Positions 3,818 to 10,928 of a stretch of 52,576 bases of DNA are shown here, in pieces. The translations under genes were made by a program, and so were the position numbers. Each line of letters starts with the position of its first letter. Position 1 is the stretch's first letter. The stretch spans positions 1 to 52,576 of the forward strand of contig JAJJBE010000106.1 of NCBI GenBank assembly GCA_020996635.1, given 5' to 3'. The stretch comes from Bathymodiolus brooksi methanotrophic gill symbiont (lineage in GTDB: Bacteria; Pseudomonadota; Gammaproteobacteria; Methylococcales; Methylomonadaceae). Below the pieces are notes generated by a model. The model had not been told where the DNA came from, did not search any database, and was given only the letters and a program-made list of their open reading frames with translations.

Positions 3818-5134
3818 TCAACGTTTGAATGTTTCTAACCATTCACAAATATCGACTACTGCCGACCTGCCGTGACCTCTTCCTTCAGAAAAATTGCCAT
3901 GTGTTAAAAGCTCTTTTACTTCATCTTCACCAGAAAGATAGTATTTCAATAACCACCGAAGAGGATGACCTTCGGGTTTATAATCCTTCCAATGGTCTGT
4001 CTCAAATGATTGTAACTGAGTTTCTTTTATTGCTTTTTCATAAGATATATTTCCTAAGGCTAGCTTTCTATAAGTATTAGGATATAACACTTTAATAATG
4101 CACAAATAAATTGAAAGCCATGAATAATCAGGGTTTAAGTTTCCATCAGTTAAATTATGAATGATTGCGTAATTTGATAAACTCCGCTCTATTTCTCTCA
4201 ATGAAATATTGTAATGATCAATTAGCTCTTCATATAATTCAAACCCTACCTGCTCAGTTCTGGTTTTTATCTCAAAATCCATTCTTTTTAAGCAATCATT
4301 TAAATATTTTTTTCCATTACTGGTATATCCGTCTGGTGATTTTGGTAACCCAGTCCAAATATGAACAAATTTTTGTAGATATTTAGTAGAGTCAATTCCT
4401 GCGCCATACCTTGAACGTATAACCTCATCCATTTGTTCTCTATTCATGACTAGAACAAACACAATTCCGGGAATTGAAAATATGTGTTTGATTTTTTCCA
4501 GTAAATCGAGAGCAAATGATGGTTTACATCTATCTAATTCATCTATGATAAATACAATTTTATTACCACCACCTACTGTTTCAGCTGTTGCTGATAAAGT
4601 AATTTTGAACTCTTCAATTGATGCTTTATCATCTTTAAGTGAATCTAAACGACTAGATATATAACTATCGGACATATCTGTAATTTCTTTTTCTGCCCCA
4701 GCTCCCTCCAAAACTGTTTCATCCAATACACCAGCAGTTAATGCTTTTAACCCTATTCTAATACTGGCTTTGCCGATAGTTTTAATTGCAGAAACCGCTT
4801 TATTTTTGAATTCTTCTTTAGTTTCAGTTTCTTCATCCAATAATGAATAGACCTCTCCAACCAATGCCAGCAGAGGATCATCTAGGAAATCATTTTGAAA
4901 GGCATCAAAATAGATACTTTCGATATTTTGTTCTTTAAGCATTCCTTGCCACATTTTAACAAATGTAGTCTTACCCTCTCCCCAAGGAGCATCAATAGCT
5001 AAAACCAATTCATCACTAACATTTTCGATAAGATTACTTAATTTTTCAGCAAAGTTTTTTCTTTGAAAAATATCCTTTTCTGGTAGAAAACCTTCATATT
5101 CTTCAATTTCTACTGGTGATGGAGTTAGTTTCAT
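3818..5134 (-). CDS. KAP-family P-loop NTPase
   Basis: This 438-residue protein carries a Walker A loop APWGEGKTTF (about 49-58) and a Walker B strand KIVFIIDELDRCKPS (about 192-206). The segment after Walker B, FSIPGIVFVLVMNREQM, and the YLQKFVHIW motif are typical of KAP ATPases (STAND-like signalling NTPases named for Kidins220/ARMS and PifA). The family often has transmembrane helices inserted between Walker A and B; here that stretch (about 115-145) is only mildly hydrophobic. Bacterial members include the phage-exclusion protein PifA, so a defence role is possible but unproven. It is alone in its cassette, bounded by attC 3 and attC 4. Confidence 0.85.
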   Translation of the reverse strand: MKLTPSPVEIEEYEGFLPEKDIFQRKNFAEKLSNLIENVSDELVLAIDAPWGEGKTTFVKMWQGMLKEQNIESIYFDAFQNDFLDDPLLALVGEVYSLLDEETETKEEFKNKAVSAIKTIGKASIRIGLKALTAGVLDETVLEGAGAEKEITDMSDSYISSRLDSLKDDKASIEEFKITLSATAETVGGGNKIVFIIDELDRCKPSFALDLLEKIKHIFSIPGIVFVLVMNREQMDEVIRSRYGAGIDSTKYLQKFVHIWTGLPKSPDGYTSNGKKYLNDCLKRMDFEIKTRTEQVGFELYEELIDHYNISLREIERSLSNYAIIHNLTDGNLNPDYSWLSIYLCIIKVLYPNTYRKLALGNISYEKAIKETQLQSFETDHWKDYKPEGHPLRWLLKYYLSGEDEVKELLTHGNFSEGRGHGRSAVVDICEWLETFKR

Positions 5135-7998: not shown

Positions 7999-8103
7999 CC
8001 TAACGCCCACATTAAGCGGACAGAAATTGGGCGATATTTTTGCGCCCTTTGTTTTTGCAAAAATGACGAACTGTTTATGTTCCGTTTAAATTGCTTGTTA
8101 GGT
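7999..8103 (-). other. attC recombination site 7
   Basis: CCTAACG (7999) and GTTAGGT (8097) bound arms CATTAAGCGGACAG and a looser CTGTTTATGTTCCGTTTAA. The stop codon of the DUF4238 gene is inside the right core (TTA 8098-8100). Confidence 0.8.
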
Positions 8104-9036
8104 TCGTTTTAATAGTGTGCTGGCAGGACTGATTGTTCCACCTTTTGCTATATAATTGAAATTGTTTTTTGCAGCAAAGACTCTTTGGTAACTATTCGCA
8201 ATAATTTTACTATTTAGAATGGCAACTAAGAATTCATTAGCTTCCTTTACTGTATCTTCACGATCAAATTCACCAACAAGAGCAATATTTTTCGTTATTG
8301 GAAAATAGACCATTGTATCTTTTAAACCAAACCCTGGAGACATAAACGGTGGCACTTGCGCCGGGTCATGCCAAGCTAAGCTTACTGGATTATCAGTAGT
8401 AATAAATTCTCCCGATTCTTTTCCTGCTTTCACTAATGTCCAGTTTCTCCTGTGAAGTAACTCGGTAATCTGCTGCATTCCGATTAACTCCATATGAATC
8501 TGGTGCTCTTTGTTTACGGATATATCGAACTCTTGCCTTTCAACAAACTCTTTCATCTCTTCATAGGTTTTACCATTGGAAATATCTTCACCAGTATCTG
8601 CTTTTACTTGTGCTATTTGGGATTCCCAGCGTTCTTTAGTTTCCATTGTCATTGCCATCGTCATTTTAGCAATTTGTATTAGGGGTTTAGATAAGTGTTC
8701 ACGCATTTCAGGTGACTTGATTGCAAGCATACCAATCAATTCAAGAATCAAATCTTTTGTTTCACCCGAAAAATCCAATGTTTCAGCTATATTTTTTAGC
8801 GCATGAGCGACTTTACTTTCAAATTCAGATTGTTGTTTTTCAATGATTTCAGGATCTATGCCATCAATTTCGACTCTATTGAAATCACGCATTCCTCCAA
8901 CATTTCTTGGAATGGTTTCAAATTTTTTCAATTCTTTAAGATCTATTACCGTAAGTTTAGATTTCTTAGAGTTTCCCTGAGTAAAGCCTTTCAAATAACA
9001 CTGAGACAAATAATGATGATGCCTTGATATACTCAA
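8098..9036 (-). CDS. DUF4238 family protein
   Basis: I place the start at TTG 9036 because AGGAG lies six bases upstream; TTG 9042 would touch the ribosome site. The protein (about 312 aa) begins SISRHHHYLSQCYLKGF and later has ESGEFITTDNPVSLAW, both hallmarks of DUF4238 proteins. The function of the family is unknown; members are frequent in accessory and defence-rich regions. The stop codon TAA is supplied by the attC core itself, so gene and recombination site overlap by a few bases. It is the sole gene of its cassette. Confidence 0.8.
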   Translation of the reverse strand: MSISRHHHYLSQCYLKGFTQGNSKKSKLTVIDLKELKKFETIPRNVGGMRDFNRVEIDGIDPEIIEKQQSEFESKVAHALKNIAETLDFSGETKDLILELIGMLAIKSPEMREHLSKPLIQIAKMTMAMTMETKERWESQIAQVKADTGEDISNGKTYEEMKEFVERQEFDISVNKEHQIHMELIGMQQITELLHRRNWTLVKAGKESGEFITTDNPVSLAWHDPAQVPPFMSPGFGLKDTMVYFPITKNIALVGEFDREDTVKEANEFLVAILNSKIIANSYQRVFAAKNNFNYIAKGGTISPASTLLKRT

Positions 9037-9073
9037 TTTCAACTCCTAAATTGCGACAATTCCGATGTGAACC

Positions 9074-9274
9074 TAACACCGCGGTGACTGGCGTGTTTGC
9101 CTTGGTAATGGAGTGCGAGCACGGACGATTACCAAGGCAAACATGCCAGTCGAACGCTTAGTTATTTAGGTTCTGGAGCCATGCGACAGATCCTTAATAA
9201 CTGAGCTTTCGACTGGGCACCAGTCACCGCGGTGTTATTGAGGAACTGGAGCGCAGCTCCAGTTCCTCAATAAC
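9074..9274 (-). repeat. ORF-less hairpin cassette, copy 1 (201 bp, identical to 10091-10291)
   Basis: The unit runs from TAACACCGCGG to CAATAAC, core to core, so it is a complete integron cassette with no reading frame. Part a (about 9072-9166) is an attC: arms GACTGGCGTGTTTGCC... and ...GGCAAACATGCCAGTC form a 24-bp stem with one mismatch. Part b (about 9198-9237) is a mini-attC in opposite orientation that reuses AACACCGCGGTGACTGG. Part c (9234-9274) is a perfect palindrome: 19-bp arms GTTATTGAGGAACTGGAGC around GCA. All three hairpins have TAAC/GTTA at their feet. Confidence 0.85.
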
Positions 9275-9364
9275 GCCTGCATCAGCTGACGTAATAAGGG
9301 GCGGTTTTTTTGCTTTAGCAAAAAAAATGACGCTTATTACGGTCAGCTGGATGCAATTGTTAAA
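9271..9364 (-). other. attC recombination site 8
   Basis: TAACGCC at 9271 and GTTAAAT at 9358 bound arms GCATCAGCTGACGTAATAAG and CTTATTACGGTCAGCTGGATG. The central GGGGCGGTTTTTTTGC / GCAAAAAAAATGACGC matches attC 4 and 5. The left core is shared with the right end of the 201-bp repeat. Confidence 0.85.
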
Positions 9365-9366
9365 TG

Positions 9367-10062
9367 TTATTCACTTGAACTATTATCCGAAGAAGAAGAA
9401 TTAGTATTAACTGACCCTGCTTCTTTTTGAGCCGCTGTTGTTCCTGGAGCTGCTTGCATAGTTGGAATAGTAGCACTATCAAATGTGGGTACTTTCTGCA
9501 TTATTGGAATTGTAGCACTTTCCAAACAAGGTTTAGATTTAGGGTCAATATCAGACACACTGACTAAAGTCTCTTTTTTACTCATTTTTGATCCTTCTTT
9601 ATTAATGTTGAGCATTACAAAAATAACCATCATAATTATTGCAATACTAAATAAAAAAGCTACTAAATAGTTTAGCCTATTATTCCATATTGATAATTTA
9701 TTTTTCTCAGTAGCTGCCGATGCTTTTTTATTTATATAATAATCAGTTGCAATATCTAGCTGATGGTCAATAGCTCTGTTACTTATTAAATATGCAATCA
9801 AAGATGAAATAATAGTTAAAAGAAAAGCTCCCCACGAACCAATTATTAACCATAAATAACTCGCCATTTTAATAGGGACTACAAATTTAAAAAATGTTAG
9901 CGAAAGAGCTAATCCAGCTGATGACAGAGACAAAATTATTTTATCATAATTTTCTGTATTTGATAACTGCCTTTTCAACAACTCATCCCTAAAAGAATCA
10001 TAAAGCTCAACAGCTCGCTTTTGCTCTTCCTCATTTCGCTCAATTAGATTTGTGTTATCCAT
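9367..10062 (-). CDS. Membrane protein of unknown function, cassette-borne
   Basis: This 231-residue protein has a charged N-terminus, a hydrophobic pair at about 48-66 and 70-95 (LWLIIGSWGAFLLTIISSLI), and a third segment near 131-152 (LVAFLFSIAIIMMVIFVML). The C-terminal third is polar, Ser/Asn-rich, and contains two copies of SATIPxMQ (SATIPIMQ, SATIPTMQ). The layout recalls small sensor-like proteins that hold a SLATT-type two-helix domain, but I cannot confirm that. It is the only gene in a cassette lying between the two copies of the 201-bp hairpin cassette. Confidence 0.65.
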   Translation of the reverse strand: MDNTNLIERNEEEQKRAVELYDSFRDELLKRQLSNTENYDKIILSLSSAGLALSLTFFKFVVPIKMASYLWLIIGSWGAFLLTIISSLIAYLISNRAIDHQLDIATDYYINKKASAATEKNKLSIWNNRLNYLVAFLFSIAIIMMVIFVMLNINKEGSKMSKKETLVSVSDIDPKSKPCLESATIPIMQKVPTFDSATIPTMQAAPGTTAAQKEAGSVNTNSSSSDNSSSE

Positions 10063-10090
10063 ATTTATTTTCTAGATACTTCCGTACATT

Positions 10091-10291
10091 TAACACCGCG
10101 GTGACTGGCGTGTTTGCCTTGGTAATGGAGTGCGAGCACGGACGATTACCAAGGCAAACATGCCAGTCGAACGCTTAGTTATTTAGGTTCTGGAGCCATG
10201 CGACAGATCCTTAATAACTGAGCTTTCGACTGGGCACCAGTCACCGCGGTGTTATTGAGGAACTGGAGCGCAGCTCCAGTTCCTCAATAAC
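10091..10291 (-). repeat. ORF-less hairpin cassette, copy 2 (201 bp), first position of the array
   Basis: This is letter-for-letter the same as 9074-9274 over 201 bp, with the same core-to-core limits. It contains an attC (about 10090-10183), an inverted mini-attC and a perfect 41-bp palindrome (10251-10291). It is the cassette next to the attI position, the place of the most recent insertion in an integron. The complete identity of the two copies points to a recent second insertion or duplication. Confidence 0.85.
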
Positions 10292-10483
10292 TATTACTTC
10301 TAAAGTAACTTCGCCCTACCTGCTCAATACCAACTCACTTTTCCTTCCTATTTAAATTAAAGCTCAAATTAGCTCTATTTTTCTAATAGGAAGGCAAATA
10401 AACTGCATAATTCGATATTAGCGGGTAAATCAGGCTAAATTGCTTTAATATTTATTAGCTTAGTTTATTCACTAGGTAATATT
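10292..10483. other. Candidate attI / cassette-promoter region of a decayed integron
   Basis: The stretch lies between the last core site (TAAC ending at 10291) and the integrase-like remnant. In an integron this interval holds attI and the promoters of intI and of the cassettes. I see a small palindrome TTACTT-CT-AAAGTAA next to the boundary and AT-rich sequence beyond, but no convincing promoter. The assignment rests on position only. Confidence 0.35.
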
Positions 10484-10612
10484 ATGTCAAGCTCTGATAA
10501 TCGTAAACTCATGGATCATGTGCAACAGCTCTTGCGTGTTAAACATTATGCGATCATAAAACCAGCTGATCTCTTGATTTTTTGTGTTTGCTATTTTATG
10601 AATTTCTGCTAA
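10484..10612 (+). pseudogene. Remnant of an integron integrase (intI), N-terminal piece only
   Basis: ATG at 10484 opens 42 codons starting MSSSDNRKLMDHVQQLLRVK and continuing HYAI. This corresponds to the conserved start of the SAM-like N-terminal domain of integron integrases (L-x-V-x-x-x-L/I-R-x-K/R-H-Y-S/A-I, normally followed by R-T-E-Q-A-Y). After HYAI the resemblance ends and a stop follows. No catalytic Arg/His/Tyr part is found before amt. Its place and direction, next to the array and pointing away from it, are those of intI. The match is from memory of the family. Confidence 0.55.
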
Positions 10613-10660
10613 TAAACCTTCACTAGCCCTGGCTTTGTTTGAAACACGTTCTCAAGTTGA

Positions 10661-10797
10661 TATACCCAAAATAAATGAAGATGCGTGATTTAACTAAATG
10701 GAACAGCGGTCTTCAGCCGCTGCAATCACATATCAAGCATTCCGCGACTAAAGATCGCGGCTCCATTAAGCCTGCATCTTCAAGTAGCTTGGGTATA
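10661..10797. repeat. MITE-like element, TATACCC family, copy 1
   Basis: Ends TATACCCAA...GAAGATGC (left) and GCATCTTC...TTGGGTATA (right) are imperfect inverted repeats of about 28 bases. Inside are two hairpins: GCGGTCTTCAGCCGC and CCGCGACTAAAGATCGCGG. The same ends occur at 29649-29799 with a different interior, so this is a dispersed non-autonomous element. It sits in the decayed stretch behind the integrase remnant. Confidence 0.7.
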
Positions 10798-10928
10798 TTA
10801 TTCATTTACGCCTTCACATTAATTTTATCGTATTGATCACGTGCTTCAATAATCATTAAAACTTTATGATTTATACTTTAACTGAGTTTTATTTACTGTA
10901 AAAACAACCATCGTTTTTACGCATAAAA

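Follow-up and report, generated by a model that had tools for sequence, protein, structure and literature searches.

A gene-less integron cassette with a conserved, probably single-stranded DNA fold and an attI-like end recurs at attI in methanotroph integrons

The window analysed here, a stretch of 52,576 nucleotides from a Bathymodiolus brooksi methanotrophic gill symbiont, contains an integron array in which one 201-bp unit without a gene occurs twice, at 9074–9274 and 10091–10291. What kind of element is this unit, and why does one copy stand first in the array? An earlier note, made from the window alone, had described two identical cassettes without protein that run from core site to core site, one of them in first position beside a broken intI, and each part of this description holds. 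Direct comparison gives zero base differences between the copies, with flanks that are unlike from the first outside base; the constant part ends at TAAC/GTTA cores in differing flanks; a scan of the unit finds no ORF of 80 aa or more; copy 10091–10291 abuts the attI region; and intI beside attI is a 5′ remnant of ~25 codons (MSSSDNRKLMDHVQQLLRVKHYAI..., plus strand, 10484–10554, delimited by leader comparison), breaking off near 10554. Under the IntI cut G^TT, the element proper (hereafter E) is ~197 bp long (9077–9273 and 10094–10290), the other four of its 201 bases being shared GTT/A core letters. E is very probably an integron gene cassette of the gene-less subtype, an accepted cassette kind.

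Read along the minus strand, the array opens with a Pc-like promoter (TTGACA-17-TAAACT, 10462–10490, a consensus match) directed into attI and E. The attI region or leader (10292–10470), common to five other leaders of the genome, is followed by E copy 1 (10091–10291, scoring 179 bits with covariance model R3), a cassette with a 231-aa ORF of no Pfam family (9367–10062) and an ordinary 92-bp attC (9271–9362, attC-type scan), E copy 2 as third cassette (9074–9274, from genome search and copy comparison) and a DUF4238 cassette; further cassettes fill the array to the left end of the window. A larger element including the upstream TATCAGGG...CCTGATAATAATA repeat was considered and rejected, that repeat being the attI region itself. 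Two cassette genes of the window fall in candidate defence families by PADLOC, DUF4238-Pers at 8098–9042 (4.7e-102) and KAP NTPase PDC-S20 at 3818–5134 (2.8e-99).

Gene-less integron cassettes have so far mostly been regarded as oddities or promoters. They are known from Vibrio superintegrons (PMC11014356) and an oral metagenome (PMC6557892), and those studied act as promoters. E is like them in being core-bounded and in carrying no gene, but differs in having no promoter-like site inside, in being highly palindromic, in belonging to a covarying family and in lying mostly at attI. A consensus scan for sigma-70-like promoters inside either E copy found none, and so no promoter-like site for the transcription-signal cassette, one of three natures proposed in the earlier note.

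Searching the 2.43 Mb, 268-contig genome (G000) with the 201-bp unit returned eight full copies, six of them identical, one with a single change and one with four. Four further copies are shortened: one on contig C247 that has lost the P2 stem, two on C14, and one on C155 where the contig breaks off within the copy; full and truncated copies together are spread over five arrays, and C96 holds one diverged remnant more. All full copies have TAAC/GTTA ends and a single orientation relative to the array. Their left neighbour is attI or an attC end, and their right neighbours vary (GTTAGGT, GTTAAAT, GTTAGCT, GTTATGT, GTTATAC, GTTATGA and GTTATGC). The recent movement that had been supposed from the window pair thus extends to the genome, where multiple copies ending at cores in different contexts indicate that E was moved or copied recently. 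Exact 201-bp repeats may cause misjoins in a 268-contig assembly, so that flanks could be permuted among copies; such permutation could alter neither the existence of the copies nor the kind of flanks they have. In three genomes, contigs stop within E or immediately after it (C25, C133 and C116 of G162; C348 of G196; C155 of G000), and copies are therefore probably undercounted in fragmented assemblies.

The genome holds six leaders (attI plus the 5′ end of intI; C62, C100, C247, C155, C14 and C151) that are 80–98% alike; G001 and G162 also carry several. Only the intI of C100 is intact; its 328-aa product scores 436.9 bits with TIGR02249 (cut-off 265) and provides the trans-acting integrase that the earlier note had thought might exist. 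The other five are cut at different codons. Five leaders have kept attI, and in four of them E comes first among the cassettes. As the leaders have diverged and E is identical, E either came in or was homogenised later than the split between the leaders. Within this genome alone the enrichment in first place is weak (about p = 0.04, a rough hand binomial from cassette counts), E making up ~30% of the cassettes counted. Deeper copies tend towards more decay, on C14, on C100 and in the Syntrophaceae locus L123; entry of E at attI would lead one to expect the greater change of the deeper C14 and C100 copies. C247 departs from this, with the P2-deleted E nearer to attI than an intact one and an ordinary cassette in first place.

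Two other features were seen around these leaders. On C247, the attC just before the P2-deleted E (L011, 3731–3820) is an almost perfect palindrome, unlike other attCs. A MITE-like repeat with ends TATACCC(A/C)A...TTGGGTATA lies at 10660–10802 of the window and again on C247, C155 and C151, adjoining four truncated intI remnants that it may have helped to break.

E is differentiated into two parts, a 41-bp perfect hairpin and a ~160-nt three-way-junction cloverleaf. In array orientation, hairpin I (GTTATTGAGGAACTGGAGC TGC GCTCCAGTTCCTCAATAAC) precedes the junction, in which P1 is the outer stem, the P2 cap is a diverged copy of hairpin I and P3 pairs TGTTTGCCTTGGTAAT with ATTACCAAGGCAAACA. In copy 1, hairpin I (10251–10291, minus strand) has a perfect 19-bp stem, GTTATTGAGG...CCTCAATAAC, seen in DNA and RNA folds and with compensatory stem changes in G014, and the cloverleaf occupies 10091–10253 (minus strand; covariance models and pair count). 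The equivalents in copy 2, also on the minus strand, are 9234–9274 (folds) and 9075–9236 (fold and pair count), with P1 formed by 9236–9218 and 9093–9075, P2 by 9216–9147, and P3 by 9144–9129 and 9109–9094. DNA folds of the two strands reach −82.1 and −79.1 kcal/mol (z = −16.7 each, equalled by 0 of 200 shuffles). At the 3′ end of E, P3 and the 3′ strands of stems P1 and P2 make up 91 bp that fold into a TAAC...GTTA hairpin as large as an ordinary attC (9074–9164 in copy 2, minus strand; attC-type scan). The 5′ strands of these two stems read to us as an inverted attC that lacks the P3 arm. E is like attC sites in its bottom-strand fold, its TAAC...GTTA cores and the ~91 bp of the attC-like part, and unlike them in the extra 41-bp hairpin and in its inverted attC halves, whose pairing with the attC creates a three-way junction.

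Nucleotide searches in the genus gave weak partial matches only, so covariance models were needed. A first model, R1, was left aside for its poor underlying alignment; R2, built from E and one relative, found further members, and R3 was built from ten distinct versions. Within the family R3 matches 13 of 237 genomes, spread over six genera; it also matches G580 (another family of the order) and two Desulfobacterota, Desulfopila sp. IMCC35008 and a Syntrophaceae MAG. The distribution is sparse: a single match among 90 further intI loci of the family marks E as no obligatory part, and clear matches occur in 3 of 80 named intI loci. A sequence-blind scan for the architecture gave five matches in 170 intI loci and none in shuffled copies. 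No match was found among plasmids, phages and IMG/VR (collections that may omit the host genome and its near relatives) or at gathering score in Rfam, and no described counterpart of E came up in the open-access papers and the families searched.

Across the ten-version alignment, 87.8% of cells pair, and compensatory double changes occur in 39 of 67 pairs (90 cells; 0 of 500 shuffles, with 3–10 pairs in slid controls). Fitting the alignment to the structure works in favour of the pair count; the slid controls and the agreement of all three arms nevertheless make the covariation safe. The perfect inverted repeats can also be maintained by template switching during replication.

On which nucleic acid does this fold act? 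The earlier note had listed a structured RNA as another possible nature, and a corresponding reading makes E an RNA leader: transcripts of the array would start from Pc with E at their 5′ end, and E would control their stability, processing or termination. The Pc-like consensus match next to E points into it and the RNA fold is strong (z = −17), as such a leader would have it; in the transcribed sense, however, G-U accounts for only 5 of 548 standard pairs (0.9%, in 3 columns), against 33 C-A mismatches in 19 columns, a C-A mismatch corresponding to G-T in the bottom strand. That strand is the more stably folded one in all 13 E versions (Wilcoxon p = 0.0002) and likewise in the seven ordinary attCs of the window, and it is the established substrate strand of IntI in attC sites (for example PMC2727003). 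Few G-U pairs and bottom-strand stability argue for selection on E as single-stranded DNA. Together with the absence of an Rfam match and the presence of copies deep in arrays, they render the RNA leader improbable and the structured-RNA option disfavoured; these data leave room for an RNA made from the bottom strand of E.

Counted over 11 genomes, 17 leaders have E immediately next to attI, with attI assigned by position; this bias is not an unbiased rate, as most relatives were found through E itself and not via attI. Four of these leaders belong to G000, two each to G001, G114 and G162, and one each to G007, G196, G234, G236 (two tandem copies), G580 (C1), the Syntrophaceae locus L123 and G160. 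They differ in state: G001 has one intact and one truncated intI with identical E at both, the leader of G007 is attI-like and without intI, that of G580 C1, from the other family, has an intact intI, and in G160 E adjoins a long-type intI. At least 14 copies follow an attC inside arrays, eight of them in G000 (truncated ones counted) and others in G160, G162, G580 (C15), Desulfopila, L123 and G014. Related elements in G022 and G194 (two) lie outside any recognisable integron. G114 has two integrons whose intI genes are of different types, and each carries an E version of its own, which suggests that E matches its integrase.

Copies outside recognisable integrons would suit a transposon of the MITE type that chooses TAAC in attI and attC as its target and duplicates these four bases. 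P1 would then supply long terminal inverted repeats, and TAAC on both sides fits a 4-bp duplication, although it could also be the core. Against a transposon stand the constant orientation relative to the array, the ends that coincide with the IntI crossover and the attI-like end in register with it (below), and we regard this origin as highly improbable.

The last 37–42 bases of E, compared with eleven attI ends, score above shuffles in all ten versions (z 2.6–9.0). The best matches agree in their distance from the crossover to within one base, for example in G114 (TTATCAGGGCAAATTCGCCTG in E, TATCAGGGCAAATATGCCTG in attI). The seven ordinary attCs of the window show no attI likeness (z −0.4 to 0.8). 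In G000, attI and E have both drifted and the likeness, in register with the crossover G^TTA (9074–9114 in copy 2, minus strand), is weaker than in most relatives (z = 3.2, 0 of 200 shuffles). On these alignments the 3′ end of E resembles attI in register with the crossover, which is evidence of likeness and not in itself of derivation. The attI-like end offers a reason for the place of E, in that the docking function may pass to its 3′ end.

The same observations bear on a simpler reading, in which E is a plain selfish or neutral ORF-less cassette with a highly recombinogenic attC, merely the latest insertion in most arrays, and the attI likeness reflects shared IntI binding boxes only. Identical copies, core boundaries and the greater decay of deeper copies would all follow, and at ~30% of counted cassettes first place by chance is not very improbable. 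What this reading does not predict is a whole cloverleaf with inverted attC halves kept compensatorily across phyla, or first place in 17 leaders; we think it rather unlikely. The 'selfish attC element' of the earlier note, the third of its options, came nearest to what we find and missed the covarying family, the placement at attI and the attI-like end.

It appears very probable that E is a cassette of IntI whose DNA fold is conserved. The fuller proposal, a gene-less IntI-mobilised cassette that occupies attI and whose 3′ end recreates an attI-like docking end, is our preferred explanation and a reasonably likely one, and within it a real docking role for E is tentative. From the copies, boundaries, orientation, covariation, bottom-strand bias, attI adjacency and attI-like end read in the sequences, we infer the following chemistry of excision and insertion and the docking role. 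The bottom strand of E would fold as single-stranded DNA into hairpin I and the cloverleaf, with the P3 arm and the 3′ strands of the cloverleaf forming the attC-like hairpin. IntI, here acting in trans from C100, would join E at G^TT into attI, at times behind an attC. Once inserted, E would recreate behind itself an attI-like docking end at the same distance from the crossover, and this end would keep E in the first slot, permit tandem E and leave older copies among the cassettes. E might then act as a portable attI, settling at attI or within an array and letting incoming cassettes join behind its attI-like, IntI-recognised end, a possibility we put forward with reserve; equally tentatively, each integron lineage could have its own matching version, as with the two of G114, one per intI type. 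The tandem copies of G236 and the spaced copies in arrays fit docking, and equally fit repeated capture at attI without docking.

Cassettes of the delta-attI type come closest in their downstream site, which is attI and is accepted by IntI1; they carry resistance genes and 14–18 nt of the host attI, in rare cases all of it (PMC12901181). An attI-like downstream recombination site is common to them and E, with IntI1 recombination shown for the delta-attI type only; E differs in having no gene, in its conserved cloverleaf and in an attI likeness embedded in an attC-like hairpin.

Other elements also use integron recombination sites as a niche. IS1111-attC insertion sequences and group IIC-attC introns insert within attC and encode a transposase or a reverse transcriptase. 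E shares the niche, but has no coding capacity and lies precisely at the core.

If E is indeed a portable attI, integrons would have a third, mobile recombination module besides attI and attC. A covarying, single-strand-folded, gene-less cassette at the entry slot, in methanotrophs and Desulfobacterota, would be a new integron part, with a bearing on cassette order, on how several arrays of one genome stay in play with broken intI genes and on whether a cassette can carry attI.

Some of the loci with E have further features. At one attI of G001 (L168, 8562–11797), the genes immediately behind E encode a SIR2 protein and a short prokaryotic Argonaute of class I. G160, G114 and others have integron integrases with unusually long open frames of 450–500 aa, with E-like elements at their attI (L248 and L274).
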